Of a stretch of 38,674 bases of DNA, positions 2,466 to 37,011 are shown piece after piece. The stretch comes from Bacteroidota bacterium (GTDB taxonomy: Bacteria > Bacteroidota > Bacteroidia > Chitinophagales > LD1): NCBI GenBank assembly GCA_947461105.1, contig CANHIG010000005.1:1-38674 (forward strand), given 5' to 3'. Below the pieces are notes generated by a model that was not told the origin of the DNA, searched no databases, and was given only the letters and a program-made list of their open reading frames with translations. Numbering within the stretch: the stretch's first letter is position 1; the number at the start of each line of letters is the position of its first letter. The translations under genes and the position numbers were made by a program.

Positions 2466-3350
2466 GTGTGTGCCTTGAATGGTGAATATAGTTCTTTATT
2501 TAAAGAAAGAAAAGCCCTGAGAGTGTAAGTCTCTCCAAGCGGAAATAACATTCCGAAGTGAAGCAAGTCGCAAGGTGGATTACCGTGAGGTATACACTGA
2601 AGTAAGCGAGCCTGCGCATGATGGAACTGACGAACAGGAACTGCATAAGAGGCTATGAAAGCCGGATAAGGTTACACAGCAAACCGAAGTCCTAACGTGC
2701 GGTAACACGAGTGCTTTCATAGTAGATGCAGCAGGGTTCATCTGAAGGGAATTCACCTTACCGAGGGAGGTCTTGAAATAGATTCGTTCTCTATGTGCCA
2801 AGAAGTCAGCAGAGGTCATAGTATTTGGTAACGAGCCATCAGAAAAGATGGAGGACTCACAACCATCGAAGGACTGAACGGAAGGTTGTTTCCAATTCGA
2901 TGCGGAGTTCCGATAAAATCGAGATAGCCACATCTTAAACGAGAAACAGAGTAAAAGAAAGAGTAAAGATGATTGAGCAGATTATTAACCGCAAGAACAT
3001 GCACCGCGCATGCATCCATGTAATACAGAACAAAGGTTCGGCAGGAGTAGACGGCATGGGCGCAAGTGAACTAAAGCAGTACGTGCAAGAACACGGCACA
3101 GCAATAGCCACGCGCATCATAAACGGAAAATATCTGCCCCAAGCCATCAGGGGAGTCCACATCCCCAAGAGCAACGGCAAGAAGCGACTGCTGGGCATCC
3201 CGAAAGTAACCGACCGCTGGTTGCAGCAAAGCGAGGCGCAAGCAATTGCCCCGCGATTCGAGAAAGAATTCATGGAACACTGCTATGGATTCCGCCCGAA
3301 GAAAAACGCACATGATTGTATACTGCAATCACAAAAGTATGTACATGAAG
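2466..3350 (+). mobile_element. Truncated group II intron (5' RNA domains plus N-terminal part of the IEP; catalytic 3' end missing)
   Basis: GUGYG-like 5' boundary near 2466-2468, structured non-coding leader (GAGAG...CTCTC hairpin), then an LtrA-type reverse transcriptase start; no domain V/VI recognised downstream. Confidence 0.75.
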
Positions 3351-3424
3351 AGTCCCCTGTGGTGGGGTGTTATCACCGCACCACTTTCTTTCTTTTCTTC
3401 TTAAGGTCGGTCTTATGCCCGTAA
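2969..3424 (+). pseudogene. Group II intron reverse transcriptase/maturase remnant (RT0-RT2 region only)
   Basis: KGSAGVDGM, YLPQAIRGVHIPKSNGKKRLLGIPKVTDRWLQQ, HCYGFRPKKNAHDCI motifs; homology ends at ...QKYVHEE; no YADD, maturase X or endonuclease domain. Confidence 0.85.
3359..3402 (+). terminator. Rho-independent terminator-like hairpin after the RT remnant
   Basis: GTGGTG-G-GGTG-TTAT-CACC-G-CACCAC stem-loop followed by TTTCTTTCTTTTCTTCTT. Confidence 0.55.
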
Positions 3425-27796: not shown

Positions 27797-28498
27797 CTAA
27801 AAAAGTGAGCGAAATAGTACCTTTAGAAAGTTATATAATTCAGTACTAAGGATTCCAAAATTGGACTTTGACAATACGATTCCCTTTTTCAATTGTACTG
27901 GTACTTTCTCAATCACAAGCTTCTGACGAGCAGCTAAAAAGATAAACTCCAAATCAAACAAATAGCGGTCGATAGTAGTATTCAAAAATACTTTTTCCCC
28001 TTTTGTATTAAATCCTTTGAGACCGCATTGCGTATCATCAGTCGGAATCTGAATAAAAATCCTAATAAGCAAGCGAAGTATTTTTGAAACCCAAACACGA
28101 ATCTTAGGCATGTTTGTATAGTATTCTTGTGAGCGAACTCCAATGGCTACATCGCAGTGTTGCAGGGCATTATAAACCGCCAGAAAGCTCTCTCGTTCAT
28201 AGGGAAAGTCGATATCAGTATAAATTATTTGCGAAGCTAACGACTTTGATACTCCTTCTCTTAAAGTAAAACCTTTGCCCTTATTTTCATTTCTTTCATA
28301 AAAGAAAACATCGTCTATGCCATCAAAATAATTCTTTCCTAACTGCTCTGATGGTGTTCCGTCATTAATAATTATAAGCTGGATATTTTCTTCGGGTAAC
28401 GATTTTTTAAGCCACTCAAGTTCACTGACTATATTTTCGCTCCATCCAGGAGGTGGATTAAAACAAGGTAACACAATACTGAGCGTAGGGTTATACAC
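27797..28498 (-). CDS. GT2 glycosyltransferase, dolichyl/polyprenyl-phosphate sugar synthase-like
   Basis: LSIVLPCFNPPPGW, LIIINDGTPS, NKGKGFTLREGVSKSLASQIIYTDIDFPY, TDDTQCGLKGFNTKG. Confidence 0.88.
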   Translation of the reverse strand: MYNPTLSIVLPCFNPPPGWSENIVSELEWLKKSLPEENIQLIIINDGTPSEQLGKNYFDGIDDVFFYERNENKGKGFTLREGVSKSLASQIIYTDIDFPYERESFLAVYNALQHCDVAIGVRSQEYYTNMPKIRVWVSKILRLLIRIFIQIPTDDTQCGLKGFNTKGEKVFLNTTIDRYLFDLEFIFLAARQKLVIEKVPVQLKKGIVLSKSNFGILSTELYNFLKVLFRSLF

Positions 28499-28576: not shown

Positions 28577-29635
28577 TTAGCCTAAACCAATAATTCCGAG
28601 TCCTGTAAGCACAATATTAATTATAGCCAGAGGAATTAATATTTTCCATCCTAGATTCATGAGTTGATCATATCTGAAACGCGGAAGCGTCCATCTCACC
28701 CACATGAAAAAGAATATAAAGAAGAATATTTTAGCAAATAACACAGCTACACCTATTGCTGCTGCAACGTTATAATCAATAGAATTTGCCACGTAATCCT
28801 GAAAAGGATAATTATAGCCTCCAAAGAAAAGCGTAGAAATAATAGTAGAAGAAATGAACATGTTTACATATTCCGAAAACAAGAAAAACCCAAGCTTCAT
28901 GGAAGAGTATTCTGTGTGGTAACCTCCGACCAACTCACTCTCGCACTCCGGCAAATCAAAAGGAGTACGGTTTGTTTCCGCAAACGCACAAATCAGGAAA
29001 ATAAGAAAGGCAATAGGTTGCTTGAATACTAGCCATGAAAAGAATGGAAATTTCCCGTTCCAGTCAATAAATCCATTTTGATAATTAGCGATATCTTTTA
29101 AACTCAATGAACCAACTACCATGAGTACTGCTATAATCGAAAGCCCCATAGCAACCTCATAAGAAATCATTTGTGAAGAAGCGCGAACTGCTCCAAGGAG
29201 AGAAAATTTATTATTGGATGCCCATCCTCCAATCATAATTCCATATACACCGATAGAAATAACACCAAAAACATAAAGAATGGCAATATTAATATCAGCC
29301 ACTTGCAAGTCAATGTTGTATCCAAAAAGATTAATTGGTTTTCCCCATGGAATCACAGCGCTTGTCATCAAAGCTGTTGTCATGGCAATACCTGGCCCTA
29401 AAATAAACAGAAACTTGTTTGGCGTATTAGGGATAAAATCTTCTTTAGTAAACATTTTTACACCATCGGCCAATGGTTGAAGTAAACCGCCAGGGCCAGC
29501 TCTATTAGGGCCTAATCTATCCTGAAAATAGGCTGCAATAACTCGCTCTGCAAATGTAGAGTACAATGCTATAAACATGGTAATCCCAAAAATCACCAGT
29601 ATCAAAATCAATTTTATAATTAGGGTTGTTGCCAT
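28577..29635 (-). CDS. nuoH: NADH-quinone oxidoreductase subunit H
   Basis: FAERVIAAYFQDRLGPNRAGPGGLLQPLADGVKMFTKED; AFAETNRTPFDLPECESELVGGYHTEYSSM. Confidence 0.97.
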   Translation of the reverse strand: MATTLIIKLILILVIFGITMFIALYSTFAERVIAAYFQDRLGPNRAGPGGLLQPLADGVKMFTKEDFIPNTPNKFLFILGPGIAMTTALMTSAVIPWGKPINLFGYNIDLQVADINIAILYVFGVISIGVYGIMIGGWASNNKFSLLGAVRASSQMISYEVAMGLSIIAVLMVVGSLSLKDIANYQNGFIDWNGKFPFFSWLVFKQPIAFLIFLICAFAETNRTPFDLPECESELVGGYHTEYSSMKLGFFLFSEYVNMFISSTIISTLFFGGYNYPFQDYVANSIDYNVAAAIGVAVLFAKIFFFIFFFMWVRWTLPRFRYDQLMNLGWKILIPLAIINIVLTGLGIIGLG

Positions 29636-29644
29636 TTTTGTTTT

Positions 29645-30652
29645 CTATTTTGGATTTACCATGCTCAATGATATTCTGTCTTGCTCTCTGCCTGTCAATA
29701 GAAATTTATCATCAGTATCGAATTCAACAGGCTGAAGTTTTTGAGTATAGTTATTCTGATTAATTACTGAATACTTCGCAAATTTTCTCGGTCCATCTAT
29801 AATCCAGGCTGCTTTATCTTTCTTCTCAAAACGGCAAGTGTTACAGATAAACTCCTCTACTTCATTGTATTCATCTTTTCTGGCACTTACTCTCAACACA
29901 TCATTGCCAAAGGTATAAAGCGTTACTTTTCCGCAACATTTATCGCAATCTCTGTGTGCATCTATAGGCTTGGTAAACCAAACTCTCGATGAAAAACGAA
30001 AAGTTTTATCCGTTAACGCACCTACTGGGCAAACATCTATCATGTTGCCACTAAACTCATTGTCGACTGAGTTTTGTATATAAGTAGATATTTCAGCATG
30101 GTCGCCACGATTGATGATTCCATGACAACGTCCGGGAGTTAACTGGTCTGCAACATAAGTGCAACGATAACACAAAATACAACGAGTCATGTGGAGTTGA
30201 ATCTTATCGCCAATATCTATCTTTTCAAATTCTCTTCTATCCTCTTTATAACGTGTTGCTTCCTTGCCATGTTTAAAACCAAGATTCTGCAAATCGCACT
30301 CTCCTGCCTGATCGCAAATCGGGCAATCTAGCGGGTGATTCATTAGCAAAAATTCCACTACTCCATTTCGCGCATCAATAACTCGTGGCGAAGTCAGGTT
30401 TTTCACCTCCATGCCATCCATCACCTGAGTACAACATGAAGCTACAAGCTTAGGCATTGGAGTGGGGTTAGCATCTGATCCCTTAGAAACTTCCACGAGA
30501 CACACACGGCATTTACCTCCGCTGCCTTGCAGCTTTGAATAATAGCACATGGCTGGCGGTACCAAATCGCCACCAATTTGCCTTGCAGCATTCAATATGG
30601 TGGTTCCTGGTTCTACTTCTACGGGTGTTCCGTCTATCGTTACTTTTGGCAT
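29645..30652 (-). CDS. nuoG: NADH-quinone oxidoreductase subunit G, short form (Fe-S cluster part only)
   Basis: MCYYSKLQGSGGKCRVCLVEV; HPLDCPICDQAGECDLQN; CILCYRCTYVADQLT; 335 aa, no long molybdopterin-type domain. Confidence 0.9.
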   Translation of the reverse strand: MPKVTIDGTPVEVEPGTTILNAARQIGGDLVPPAMCYYSKLQGSGGKCRVCLVEVSKGSDANPTPMPKLVASCCTQVMDGMEVKNLTSPRVIDARNGVVEFLLMNHPLDCPICDQAGECDLQNLGFKHGKEATRYKEDRREFEKIDIGDKIQLHMTRCILCYRCTYVADQLTPGRCHGIINRGDHAEISTYIQNSVDNEFSGNMIDVCPVGALTDKTFRFSSRVWFTKPIDAHRDCDKCCGKVTLYTFGNDVLRVSARKDEYNEVEEFICNTCRFEKKDKAAWIIDGPRKFAKYSVINQNNYTQKLQPVEFDTDDKFLLTGREQDRISLSMVNPK

Positions 30653-30662
30653 AGCAAATAAT

Positions 30663-32033
30663 TTATACTAATACTTCTTCTTTCATCAATAAATGCTTCA
30701 CCTTTTCCCATGGCTCAGCTACAAAATGCTCGCGATTTTTAATCTTCTCTGGGAACTTCACATGAAACTCAAACTCATCGCGGAAATGACGAATGGCAGC
30801 AGCCACAGGCCAAGCAGCAGCATCACCAAGAGGGCAAATCGTATTGCCTTCAATTTTGCGTTGAATGTCCCAAAGCACATCTATATCTTCCATAGATCCA
30901 TAGCCATTCTCTAAGCGCCAAAGGATTTTCTCCATCCAGCCAGTTCCTTCTCTGCAAGGCGAACACTGTCCGCAGCTTTCATGATGATAAAAGCGTGCAA
31001 AATTCCAGGTATTTCTAACAACACAGGCTCTGTCATCATAAACAATAAAACCTCCGGAACCAATCATAGAACCTGTTGCAAAACCACCATCAGCCATGCT
31101 TTCATAAGTCATGAGCCTGTCTTCGCCTTTTGCTGTTTTAAACAATAAATTGGCAGGCAGAATAGGCACAGAAGAACCTCCAGGCACACAAGCTTTTAAC
31201 GGACGCTCAGATTCCATACCTCCGCAATATTCATCACTGTTTACAAATTCATCAACCGTAATGCTCAATTCAATTTCATACACTCCCGGTTTTCTGATAT
31301 TTCCCGATGCAGATATCAATTTTGTTCCGGTAGATTTTCCGATACCAATTTTAGCATATTCTTCACCTCCGTTATTCAAAATCCAAGGAATTACAGCAAT
31401 AGATTCTACATTATTTACCACAGTAGGATTGCCCCAAAGCCCGCTCACTGCAGGAAACGGTGGTTTGATACGAGGATTGCCGCGTTTGCCTTCGAGGCTT
31501 TCAATCAAAGCAGTTTCTTCTCCGCAAATATATGCTCCTGCACCGCAGGTAACATGTAAATCTAAATCATAACCGGAACCTTTTATATTTTTCCCCAACC
31601 ATCCATTTGCATAAGCTTCATTTATAGCACGTTCCAAAATTCGGTACACCCACATGTATTCCCCACGAATATAGATATAGGAAAGATGGGCTTCAAGTGC
31701 GAAACTAGAAGTAATCATACCCTCAATCAAAAGGTGAGGTGTTTTTTCCATCAAAAATCTATCTTTAAATGTACCCGGCTCAGACTCATCAGCATTACAA
31801 ACCAGATGACGGGGACGACCGCTTTTTTTGTCAATAAAACTCCATTTTAACCCGGTCGGAAAACCAGCTCCTCCCCTACCTCTAAGCCCACTTTTTTTGA
31901 CCTCCTCCACAATATCGTTGGGAGCCATTTTCAGTGCCTTCTCCACAGAAGAATAACCTCCCACTTTTCGATAAGCTTCGTATCCCTGAATTCCGGGAAT
32001 ATCTATATGTTCTAAAAGTATTTTTTTACCCAT
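30663..32033 (-). CDS. nuoF: NADH-quinone oxidoreductase subunit F
   Basis: GLRGRGGAGFPTGLKWSF, CNADESEPGTFKDR, GAGAYICGEETALIESLEGKRGNPR, ESCGQCSPCREGTGWM. Confidence 0.97.
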   Translation of the reverse strand: MGKKILLEHIDIPGIQGYEAYRKVGGYSSVEKALKMAPNDIVEEVKKSGLRGRGGAGFPTGLKWSFIDKKSGRPRHLVCNADESEPGTFKDRFLMEKTPHLLIEGMITSSFALEAHLSYIYIRGEYMWVYRILERAINEAYANGWLGKNIKGSGYDLDLHVTCGAGAYICGEETALIESLEGKRGNPRIKPPFPAVSGLWGNPTVVNNVESIAVIPWILNNGGEEYAKIGIGKSTGTKLISASGNIRKPGVYEIELSITVDEFVNSDEYCGGMESERPLKACVPGGSSVPILPANLLFKTAKGEDRLMTYESMADGGFATGSMIGSGGFIVYDDRACVVRNTWNFARFYHHESCGQCSPCREGTGWMEKILWRLENGYGSMEDIDVLWDIQRKIEGNTICPLGDAAAWPVAAAIRHFRDEFEFHVKFPEKIKNREHFVAEPWEKVKHLLMKEEVLV

Positions 32034-32130
32034 TGTATAAAGTCATTTGAATGCCCTAAAATCCACAAATTAGGTTCAATAATAGGAAAGATTTTTCTGA
32101 ATATCTGTATGATTTCCACAATGTTTATTT

Positions 32131-33753
32131 CTAAATAAAAAGCTTCCTAACCGTCTGCATCTCAATATCTTGAAGCGGCTTTAAGGGTTGATAATTCATT
32201 TCATTGATTTTTATAAAAGTTCCTGAAGTTTTATCCATTTTAAAAAGCCTTGCCTTGCCTGATGTTCTATCATAATCACACATATAAGTCTGCCTGTTCG
32301 TATCCATCGTAGCGATATTAAAATCCTCTTGCTTAATTATGTCAAGTGTTTTGCCATAATAATTGAAAATCATTTTACTGTCTGACACAGGTTGCTTGAA
32401 AATAAAATCAATTCCTAAAACCATCACAGAATTATTTTCTACAGGATTTAAAAGACCATGCTTTATGGCTGAATAAAAGTTTTGAGCAGGGATGCTCTGT
32501 TCTGTATTCTTTGCTTTTATCATACAGCAATTAAGCAAGAATGTGCTTATGCCAATGATAATACAAATCGAAATAATAGAAACTTTAGCAGCATTATAAT
32601 GCAGAATTTTTGCAATCGGAAAAGCATTCAATATCTCAGTCAATACGATTGTAAGCCCAAAAATCTGGAAATAAACAGGAAGATAAGCAATCCCAAGTCT
32701 CAGCTCACTTTGATACTTCACAGAAACCATTAATATCATAGCGGGGACAAACAAAAATACCAGACCGATAAAAAAATTATCAAGTTGAAAAGAACCGCTG
32801 CCCCATTTCTGGTTTTGGGTATTGAACAGGAGAAGCCCTCCCAAACAAAGCATTACTAATGCAATAAATAGCACAAGAGGATTACTGAGCTGTAAGAAAA
32901 GCACTTCCGGTATAGCGTACACTTTATAAAAATTTGACAACGGAAGTGTTGAAAACATCTGACATATGAAAACGTTTCTCATGCCTTCTGCATTAAAACT
33001 CATCTCTGTTCCTATATAAGATAGTGTGGAATTTTCTCTAATAATTTTTAATGTAACAAAATAAAGAATGGGTAAAAGCAAGAGTGGGGCAAGTTGAAAC
33101 ATTCGCTGCCTAAGTTTCTTGAAATGGAAAACTATCAACCCATAAAAAACCAGAAAAGGAACAATCCCAATCTCAGTAATTAAAAGAGCCATAGTAGCAA
33201 ATACAAATGCGCCAGCTAATTTAAAGATAGATTTAGAGTCAATATAATACAGAAACAAACCAACCGCAAGTAGTGAAAAAGCAGTTGCAATAGGATACAT
33301 TGCATTTAAAGAGGTGAAAGGGTCGTGATGAGAAATTTGAAATTGAAAGAGCATTCCTAAAAGCATCAATGAAAGCCCTGTTAGATTTCCCATCTTTGAC
33401 TTTTGAAGAAAATATACAAACGACAATACAGCAAAAACATTAGCGGTGTAAACCAATAATTTGTATTGCAGGATAGAATGGGATAGCCAATAAATTCCAA
33501 CAAATAAGTAAAAAGAAAGAGGCGTGAATCTGCCTATTTTCAGCCATTTCGTAATTTCTCCATTGCTGTAGCCTATCATCTTGCTGAATGTGAAATCAGG
33601 AATAGATTTCAGCAACTGATAATTCATTAAATCATCAGAATATAATCCGGAACATATAATTGGGGATAACAAAAGAGCTAAAAAAGCAAATGCTAAAACA
33701 GGGAAAAGATGCTTATGTAAAAAGTAAAATAATTTTGCCTTTATCAGCATCAA
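32131..33753 (-). CDS. Polytopic membrane protein, GT-C glycosyltransferase-like, inserted between nuoE and nuoF
   Basis: Roughly ten hydrophobic stretches by eye; acidic YSDD motif just after the first TM as in GT-C enzymes; start lies 3 nt after the nuoE stop (TAATTGATG). Confidence 0.6.
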   Translation of the reverse strand: MMLIKAKLFYFLHKHLFPVLAFAFLALLLSPIICSGLYSDDLMNYQLLKSIPDFTFSKMIGYSNGEITKWLKIGRFTPLSFYLFVGIYWLSHSILQYKLLVYTANVFAVLSFVYFLQKSKMGNLTGLSLMLLGMLFQFQISHHDPFTSLNAMYPIATAFSLLAVGLFLYYIDSKSIFKLAGAFVFATMALLITEIGIVPFLVFYGLIVFHFKKLRQRMFQLAPLLLLPILYFVTLKIIRENSTLSYIGTEMSFNAEGMRNVFICQMFSTLPLSNFYKVYAIPEVLFLQLSNPLVLFIALVMLCLGGLLLFNTQNQKWGSGSFQLDNFFIGLVFLFVPAMILMVSVKYQSELRLGIAYLPVYFQIFGLTIVLTEILNAFPIAKILHYNAAKVSIISICIIIGISTFLLNCCMIKAKNTEQSIPAQNFYSAIKHGLLNPVENNSVMVLGIDFIFKQPVSDSKMIFNYYGKTLDIIKQEDFNIATMDTNRQTYMCDYDRTSGKARLFKMDKTSGTFIKINEMNYQPLKPLQDIEMQTVRKLFI

Positions 33754-34269
33754 TTATACTTTACTTATCATTTCCACTTTCCCTGCCTTGCAATCTTCAA
33801 TAAGCTTATCTATTTTTTCAGGAGTAAGAAACTCATGAAAATAATCGCCCAATTGAAGCATTGGTGCATAACCACAAGCGCCAAGGCACTCCACTCCTTT
33901 CACGGCAAACATTCCATCTGCTGTAACCTGACCTTGCTCCACACCCAACTTTTTGCAGGTGTAGTCCATAAGATTCTCAACTCCCTTTTGACAGCATGGT
34001 GAGGTGTGGCAAAACTCAAGCATATACTTTCCAATAGGCTTATGGTTATACATGCTGTAAAAAGTAGCTACTTCATATACCTCAATCGGTTTGATAGAAA
34101 GTATTTCTGCAATCTTATCCATCAAAGGCACAGTAAGCACATGATTATTTTCATCCTGTACTTCATGAAGAATAGTCAACAATGCAGACTTCTTTTTATC
34201 TTCAGGAAAACGGCTGATAAGCACATTTATCCTCTCATTCAATCTCTCTGAAAATTTGATTTCACTCAT
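33754..34269 (-). CDS. nuoE: NADH-quinone oxidoreductase subunit E
   Basis: VYEVATFYSMYNHKPIGKYMLEFCHTSPCCQKG; VECLGACGYAPMLQLGDYFHEFLTPEKID. Confidence 0.96.
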   Translation of the reverse strand: MSEIKFSERLNERINVLISRFPEDKKKSALLTILHEVQDENNHVLTVPLMDKIAEILSIKPIEVYEVATFYSMYNHKPIGKYMLEFCHTSPCCQKGVENLMDYTCKKLGVEQGQVTADGMFAVKGVECLGACGYAPMLQLGDYFHEFLTPEKIDKLIEDCKAGKVEMISKV

Positions 34270-34290: not shown

Positions 34291-35529
34291 TTAAGCATCT
34301 AACTCGCCAGCTATCACGTTCATGGAACTCATGATTAATATTGCATCTGACAAATATCCACCTTTAATCATTTCTGTAAATGCCTGATAGTATATAAAGC
34401 ATGGTCTTCTGAAGTGTAAACGATAAGGCACACGGCTTCCATTGCTCACTAAATAAAAGCCCAGCTCGCCATTACCACCTTCCACACAATGATATACTTC
34501 TCCAACTGGAACAGGAATCTCGCCCATCACAATTTTGAAATGATAAATCAATGCCTCCATGCTGCTATACACTTCCTGTTTTGGCGGCAGATAGTAATCT
34601 GGCACATCTGCATGATAAGGGCCTTCAGGCATTTTTTCTAATGCTTGCCTGATTATTCTCAAGCTCTGTCTTACTTCTTCCTGACGAACCATGTAGCGAT
34701 CATAGGTATCCCCTGCAGTTCCAACAGGAACATCAAATTCGAAATCCTCATAAGAAGAATATGGATTCATCTTTCGAATATCATAATCAACGCCAGCTGC
34801 CCTCAAGTTTGGTCCTGTAAAACCATAACTAATTGCTTTTTCAGCAGATATAGCACCTGTATGCAGACAACGATTCATGAAAATTGTATTTCGGGTCAAT
34901 AGCTGATCAAACTCTTCCCATTTAGCAGGAAAAGTTTCCATAAACTTATGAATCTTAGCCCATACAGCTGGAGACCAATCGCGCTCCCATCCACCGATTC
35001 TACCCATATTTGTAGTGAGTCTCGCTCCGCAAATCTCTTCATAAATTTCATACACCTCTTCACGTGCTTGAAAAATATGAAGGAAGCCTGTAAATGCGCC
35101 TGAGTCAACTCCCAAAATTGAGTTGCAAATCAAGTGATCCGTGATTCTGGCAAGTTCCATAACTATCACGCGCATGTATTGTACCCGCTTTGGAACTTCT
35201 ACTCCTAGCAACTTCTCTAGTGTCATCCACCAACCCATGTTGTTGATTGGTGATGAGCAATAGTTCATCCTGTCTGTTAAAGGAGTTATCTGATAAAACG
35301 GTCTGTTTTCTGCAATTTTTTCAAACGCACGGTGAATGTATCCAACAGTTTGCTCTGCATCCACAATTTTCTCACCATCCATCAAAAGTACATTCTGGAA
35401 AATTCCATGTGTAGCAGGATGTGTTGGCCCAAGGTTAAGAATTGAAAGCTCACTTCCATCCTCATTTTCCTTTTCCTTGATGAGTTCGTTATATCTCTTT
35501 TGAATTACATCAGAAGTTGCTATTGACAT
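34291..35529 (-). CDS. nuoD: NADH-quinone oxidoreductase subunit D
   Basis: [57 protein letters not shown]-terminal VIAGELDA. Confidence 0.97.
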
Positions 35530-36059
35530 CAGTTCAAATTTTGGTTTAATGGAACACGTCCAAAATATCTATCGTCCTTATCTGTTCTGCCCTGATCCTC
35601 TAATGGAAACTCTTTGCGCATCGGGAAAGAAACCATTTCATCCATATTCAAAATACGTTTTAAATCGGGATGATTTTTGAAAATAATCCCATAGAAGTCA
35701 TAAGTCTCGCGCTCTTGCCAGTTTGCTGAAGAAAATAAATCTACCATAGAATCTACTTCAGGATTTTCGCCATCCAAATACACTTTTACTCTCACTCGAA
35801 CATTATCTAACCAATTATGCAAGTGATAAATTACTGATAATTGACGCTCTTTCTCATTTTCAGGGAAATGTGCTCCACAAAGATCTGTCATAAAGTTGAA
35901 ACGCAAGGTTGCATCATCTTTCAAAAAATGAATAAGCTCATGTGCACTGCCAGCAGTTACCTCAAAAGTCAATAAACCCCAAGGCTCATCAAATGCTGAA
36001 ACTTTATCTGCAAATTTTGCAATAAGCAATTCCTTTATGGTGTTGTTATCTAATGCCAT
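35529..36059 (-). CDS. nuoC: NADH-quinone oxidoreductase subunit C
   Basis: SANWQERETYDFYGIIFKNHPDLKRILNMDEMVSFPMRKEFPLEDQGR. Confidence 0.95.
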   Translation of the reverse strand: MALDNNTIKELLIAKFADKVSAFDEPWGLLTFEVTAGSAHELIHFLKDDATLRFNFMTDLCGAHFPENEKERQLSVIYHLHNWLDNVRVRVKVYLDGENPEVDSMVDLFSSANWQERETYDFYGIIFKNHPDLKRILNMDEMVSFPMRKEFPLEDQGRTDKDDRYFGRVPLNQNLN

Positions 36060-36061
36060 AA

Positions 36062-36616
36062 TTATTGAACGTTAATTCCGTAAGAAGCCAATAGAGCCTT
36101 ATATTCTGGCGAGTTTCTCCGTGAAAACTTTTCGTTTTTCACTAACTCCTGCAGTTGCATCAAGCCGTCAATGATTTGTTCGGGACGTGGCGGGCAACCC
36201 GGCACATATACATCTACCGGAATCACCTTATCTATTCCCTGAAGTACAGAATAAGTATCGAACACTCCACCGGATGATGCACAAGCACCAACAGCAATAA
36301 CCCATCTCGGCTCGGCCATTTGTTCGTAAACCTGACGTAAAACTGGCCCCATTTTTTTTGCAATAGTTCCCATCACCATAAGCATATCAGCCTGACGAGG
36401 AGAGAAACTCGGACGCTCAGAACCAAATCGGGCAATGTCGTATGTAGAAGCCATAGTAGACATAAACTCTATGCCACAACATGAAGTGGCAAAAGGCAAT
36501 GGCCACAATGACTTCGAACGAGCAAGCCCAACAACTTGGTCAACGGTGGTGGCAAAAAAGCCTTCGCCTTCAATACCTTTTGGGGGGGCTTCTACCATTT
36601 TTATATCACTACTCAT
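36062..36616 (-). CDS. nuoB: NADH-quinone oxidoreductase subunit B
   Basis: [62 protein letters not shown]. Confidence 0.97.
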
Positions 36617-36645
36617 TTATCGCGTTTTAATTCAAATTAGTGAAA

Positions 36646-37011
36646 TTACTCCCACTCCAATGCTTTCTTTTTGATAATGTAAAAAAAGCCCACTAACAAT
36701 AAGCCCATGAACAGGAACATCTTCAATAAACCGTCCATCCCCAAATCGCGGAAATTTACCGCCCATGGGTAAAGGAAGATGACCTCAACATCAAACAATA
36801 CAAACAAGATTGCAACTAGAAAATACTTCACAGAAAAAGGAATTCTGGCATTCCCATAAGACTCAATACCACACTCAAAATTGGCATCTTTTATCTGGGA
36901 CTTTCTTCTAGGTCCAATAAAATGAGATAGAAACAGCATAAGTGCCACAAAACCGGCAGCAAAAACCATCTGCATTATTATCGGCAAGTAATCAATATTG
37001 GTAGACTGCAT
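36646..37011 (-). CDS. nuoA: NADH-quinone oxidoreductase subunit A
   Basis: FECGIESYGNARIPFSVKYFLVAILFVLFDVEVIFLYPWAV. Confidence 0.96.
   Translation of the reverse strand: MQSTNIDYLPIIMQMVFAAGFVALMLFLSHFIGPRRKSQIKDANFECGIESYGNARIPFSVKYFLVAILFVLFDVEVIFLYPWAVNFRDLGMDGLLKMFLFMGLLLVGFFYIIKKKALEWE

Follow-up and report, generated by a model that had tools for sequence, protein, structure and literature searches.

Glycosyltransferases of the GT-CA type, such as the oligosaccharyltransferases STT3, PglB and AglB and the enzymes ArnT, DPY19, Pmt4 and PimE, carry their catalytic aspartate at the tip of the first juxtamembrane helix, JM1 (PMC12041525). The GT-C fold also occurs in a non-transferase role, namely in PIG-U of the GPI transamidase (PMC12041525). 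The Gtr three-component system consists of the flippase GtrA, the polyprenyl-phosphate-sugar synthase GtrB and a serotype-specific Gtr protein of the GT-C type, and genes for GtrA and a GT2 protein beside a GT-C gene represent parts of such a system (PMC11127046).

We have analyzed an open reading frame, here termed ORF X, which is located between nuoE and nuoF in a stretch of 38,674 nucleotides (the window) from a Bacteroidota bacterium of the order Chitinophagales. ORF X is best explained as a periplasmic GT-C glycosyltransferase of an unnamed family and as a passenger of the nuo operon, residing at its permissive nuoE-nuoF junction; the probability of this reading is estimated at about 0.77. 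Like passengers in other housekeeping operons, ORF X is unrelated to its neighbors, is read in the same direction and lies tight to the upstream stop codon; unlike them, it occupies a single junction that recurs throughout the order with at least 10 unrelated kinds of genes. The features of the locus are compiled in the table.

Features of the ORF X locus (positions refer to the window)
Feature	Position	Strand	Remark
ORF X, GT-C-like glycosyltransferase	32131..33753	-	TTG 33753 / ATG 33750
nuoE (PF01257)	33754..34269	-	directly upstream of ORF X
Spacer between ORF X and nuoF	32034..32130	-	97 nt
nuoF (PF01512/PF10589)	30663..32033	-	next operon gene after ORF X
nuoG and nuoH	28577..30652	-	end of this operon part
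nuoD, nuoC, nuoB, nuoA	34291..37011	-	
S38-D39-D40	33631..33639	-	start of first juxtamembrane helix after TM1; candidate catalytic base
R74, invariant	33529..33531	-	periplasmic loop 1, GRFTP motif
H142-D143	33322..33327	-	periplasmic loop 2 between TM3 and TM4
E193, invariant	33172..33174	-	periplasmic turn TM5-TM6
K345-Y346-Q347, invariant	32710..32718	-	periplasmic loop after TM9
C-terminal periplasmic alpha/beta domain	32188..32457	-	residues about 432-521, from the model

The gene order on the minus strand of the window is nuoA-B-C-D-E-[ORF X]-F-G-H. A sequence-only reading had described a polytopic open reading frame between nuoE and nuoF with its ATG 3 nt behind the nuoE stop codon. 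Both statements proved correct, as did the coordinates, and the strand, which had been left unstated, is the minus strand. The junction reads TAA-TTG-ATG, with the nuoE stop codon TAA at 33754-33756 directly abutted by TTG. Translation from TTG 33753 to the stop at 32131 yields 540 amino acids, translation from ATG 33750 yields 539; the ATG is the more likely start codon. For the protein of 539 amino acids, 11 transmembrane (TM) helices and a C-terminal alpha/beta domain were predicted. Judged by its sequence conservation ORF X is a real gene, because homologues with an identity of 20-45% share 19 invariant residues with it over more than 500 amino acids. The coding strand of the spacer between ORF X and nuoF contains no terminator-like site, and ORF X is probably co-transcribed with the nuo genes. 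In the window genome the nuo operon ends after nuoH, and a nuoL/M/N-like cluster is found on another contig (G000:C26:5992-10703). The window also harbors a truncated group II intron at 2579-3424 on the plus strand, with domains matching RF02001 (E 1.9e-21) and RF01998, followed by an open reading frame of 151 amino acids whose reverse transcriptase domain breaks off after its first part.

Searches of Pfam, NCBIfam and PDB sequences with ORF X gave no match, a profile of ORF X found nothing meaningful in sequence databases, and the same held for PHROGs searched with the protein or its profile. No named glycosyltransferase or Pfam family, including PMT, ArnT, STT3 and GtrII, scored above its curated cut-off, and none of the homologues could be assigned to a named glycosyltransferase family either. 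In agreement with the earlier statement that the protein matches no known complex I subunit, the one hit to such a subunit was a sub-threshold match of a fragment to Oxidored_q2 (E 0.028), which disappeared when the whole protein was used. A complex I subunit or a chain-4L-like protein was ruled out by this score and by the fold. ORF X is a candidate for a new GT-C sequence family for which no curated model exists.

Searching the order as well as public genomes yielded homologues. Among the 19 residues that are invariant in an alignment of ten sequences are D39, D40, R74, Y96, K97, D143, E193, K345, Y346 and Q347. The YSDD motif noticed earlier behind TM1 is present at residues 37-40; D39 and D40 are invariant in 10 of 10 homologues and stand at the start of a helix comprising residues 38-49 in the model. 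D143 is likewise invariant and H142 occurs in nine of the ten. K345-Y346-Q347 may possibly contact the donor phosphate.

AlphaFold models were built for ORF X (pLDDT 82.6, pTM 0.85) and for a homologue residing in the nuo operon of genome G020 (pTM 0.87); both were derived from the same ten sequences and are thus not fully independent. A Foldseek comparison of the ORF X model with the PDB returned GT-C enzymes at all of the top 14 places (STT3, PglB, ArnT, AftA, Pmt4), with a best E-value of 1.6e-4 and a probability of 1.00 for the first 11. With the model of the homologue all top 24 matches were GT-C enzymes (best E 5.2e-5), and DPY19 was also among the top folds obtained with the two models. 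Nearly all GT-C matches had probabilities of 0.98-1.00, AftA chains 0.66-0.80, and the first unrelated match followed at ≤0.23. TM-scores of the leading matches were modest (0.36-0.46), as expected for remote relatives. In a viral structure library one GT-C-like match was obtained, a protein of Oenococcus phage phiS13 with no known function (E 9.3e-4). In both models secondary structure assignment by DSSP revealed TM1 followed by juxtamembrane helices and then by further TM helices, the arrangement of the GT-C fold. The GT-C fold of ORF X is well supported by structure prediction, and its topology is supported by the same means. The likeness to GT-C enzymes proposed from the sequence was strengthened by the structure searches with both models, by the layout of the motifs and by the glycan clusters around homologues described below.

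TM helices were assigned by hand from the secondary structure of the model, with the N-terminus inside and 11 TM helices. In this topology 18 of the 19 invariant residues, as compared to 67% of all residues, are located on the periplasmic side. Lysine and arginine are denser in the cytoplasmic loops (6 of 28 residues) than in the periplasmic loops (12 of 172). ORF X shares with GT-CA enzymes the acidic residues that follow TM1 at the juxtamembrane helix (here D39 and D40, both conserved and situated in extracytoplasmic loop 1), additional acidic positions from loop 2 onward, and a predicted active face on the periplasmic side. It differs from them by the lack of detectable sequence similarity, by its motifs SDD, GRFTP, HD and KYQ and by its short alpha/beta C-terminal domain.

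Since D39 and D40 stand at the head of the first juxtamembrane helix, and the catalytic aspartate of GT-CA enzymes is found at the tip of JM1, we infer that Asp39 or Asp40 would act as catalytic base, the correspondence being one of topology and not of superposition. The enzyme would probably transfer a sugar from a polyprenyl-phosphate donor to an acceptor outside the cytoplasm, for which a surface glycan is the most likely candidate. PIG-U sets a precedent for a scaffold or lipid-binding protein with a GT-C fold and no transferase role. Such a role is nevertheless improbable for ORF X, given the invariant DD pair, D143, E193, R74 and KYQ on the periplasmic side and one homologue whose gene clusters with those for GtrA and a GT2 protein.

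This homologue, from Desulfosporosinus metallidurans, carries a C-terminal LamG/ConA-like domain, a carbohydrate-binding type of domain comparable to the carbohydrate-binding module on GT136 of Citrobacter O1. Its cluster contains GT4 genes and genes for a nucleotidyltransferase, a dehydratase, a DegT aminotransferase, GtrA (PF04138, E 2.3e-24) and GT2, which resembles a Gtr system. The family of ORF X is also similar to Gtr proteins and to GT136 in that it comprises polytopic GT-C proteins which are patchily distributed and divergent. Four further homologues have comparable neighbors: one (L045) adjoins a GT2 gene, with an open reading frame for epimerase and GT2 domains nearby, a second (L050) overlaps a GT4 gene by 4 nt, a third (L098) has GT4 and methyltransferase genes near it and the fourth (L048) GT4, galK and galT. 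These neighborhoods support a role in extracytoplasmic glycosylation. Two large open reading frames near homologues (L098 2734-4320 and L049 3586-5835, the latter in D. metallidurans) had no Pfam match and appeared polytopic by eye; possibly, they encode other unclassified GT-C proteins.

Unlike in Gtr systems, neither GtrA nor GtrB was found beside ORF X in the window. A GT2 gene (PF00535) directly follows nuoH at 27797-28498 on the minus strand; it is general in the family and was present in 35 of 61 relatives, almost all of them family members. At none of seven GT2 loci fetched from other genomes was nuoH adjacent. As a dedicated partner of ORF X this GT2 was ruled out, since it is widespread in the family and shows no link to ORF X.

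A survey of the nuoE-nuoF neighborhood showed that the insertion is not limited to the window genome. Two further genera of the family, represented by genomes G014 and G020, likewise have an ORF X homologue that begins 4-8 nt behind nuoE and precedes nuoF. An assembly artefact was ruled out by these homologues, which come from separate assemblies. The same arrangement in two other species, together with an open frame conserved with shared motifs, also refutes the suggestion of a one-off chance insertion; the low GC content of ORF X would fit such an event, which has become a negligible prospect.

ORF X did not consistently co-occur with nuo: of 399 genomes of the order, 9 had ORF X and 236 had nuoE. 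Of the six genomes of the family that bear ORF X, three have it precisely between nuoE and nuoF, a share that might point to more than chance. Most nuoE-nuoF junctions of the family lack it: genome G001, of the same genus as the window genome, has an unbroken run from nuoA to nuoH without insert, followed by open reading frames in the places of nuoI to nuoN. The three nuo-resident proteins are 26-27% identical to each other, whereas NuoD, NuoE and NuoF of the species that bear them are 70-88% identical to those of the window. GC content is 33.6% for ORF X as compared to 36-46% for the nuo genes, a difference that may partly result from membrane-protein composition. Patchiness, the empty junction in G001, low GC content, low identity relative to nuo and the many unrelated inserts reported below support passenger status.

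These data also bear on the suggestion that ORF X is a lineage-specific accessory protein, acting in assembly, stability or regulation of complex I, which would explain why three genera retain it beside nuoE. Its place, tight to nuoE in three species, is what speaks for such a role. It is very unlikely, however, in view of the absence of ORF X from the junction in the same-genus genome and in most of the family, the copies away from nuo, several of them near glycan genes, the low identity between species, the predicted GT-C fold and the many unrelated genes found at the same junction. A passenger at an insertion hotspot fits these observations better and would not require any participation of the protein in complex I.

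The phylogeny of ORF X was compared with that of the nuo genes. ORF X of the window is sister to a copy in genome G058 (supports 97/99 and 99/98; identity 44-45%), which belongs to a different family and has its copy away from nuo; this grouping conflicts with the nuo tree. The G058 copy (L002 1483-3025), the closest homologue, has a frameshift near the position of residue 280 of ORF X. The AU test rejected a clade limited to the three nuo-resident sequences (p-AU 1e-33). In a reduced tree the three nuo-resident sequences and the G058 copy fell on one side of a branch (support 69/79, unresolved), as a single insertion in the family ancestor could produce, the three copies being vertical relics and the empty junctions losses. 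Such a history would be compatible with the enzyme reading of ORF X, yet we consider it rather doubtful, given the sister grouping with a copy of another family, the rejected clade and the nuo tree, in which every ORF X-bearing species has close relatives free of ORF X. Separate captures with lateral transfer are favored over one old capture followed by many losses and one transfer out.

In this order, the position between nuoE and nuoF is apparently open to foreign genes. Within the family, other inserts encode a fatty-acid desaturase, a PAP2/haloperoxidase-like lipoprotein, a nucleotidyltransferase pair and a VOC-like protein; beyond it, DUF4440, VOC/glyoxalase, NlpE, DUF2750, DUF4349, MFS, an AAA-like ATPase and HepT/MNT were recognized, some of them by eye. 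An insert was defined as a gap of ≥300 nt between neighboring nuo genes, with gap lengths extrapolated from tblastn ends, and operons were counted individually, ignoring shared ancestry. On this basis, 28 of the 67 operons in which both genes were covered had an insert at nuoE-nuoF. Gaps of this size occurred at F/G in 12 of 53, at D/E in 8 of 76 and at C/D in 4 of 58 cases, and were few at G/H (3 of 45), A/B (1 of 28) and B/C (1 of 29). A further eight operons were split after nuoE and eight after nuoF. A limited literature search found no reports of genes inserted at nuoE-nuoF.

Since this junction takes many unrelated genes, position is no evidence for a role of ORF X in complex I. The locus warns against deducing function from operon position: one junction of the complex I operon holds unrelated genes in this order. 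An insert on the same strand would probably be transcribed with the complex I genes. Tentatively, nuoE-nuoF may be an order-wide cargo site, at which unrelated genes are captured repeatedly and kept for steady, energy-linked expression from the complex I promoter, one orphan GT-C family having been captured more than once. A comparison of sister species with and without an insert at a given junction could test why that junction accepts foreign genes.

The nuoF-nuoG junction (L132-L171) also gathers genes: gaps of about 480 nt often contain PD-(D/E)XK genes (PF13366) or genes for 23S rRNA-intervening-sequence proteins (PF05635). The nuo operon of genome G025 (L083) has inserts at B/C, C/D, D/E and F/G, several of which are small open reading frames resembling toxin-antitoxin genes by eye.
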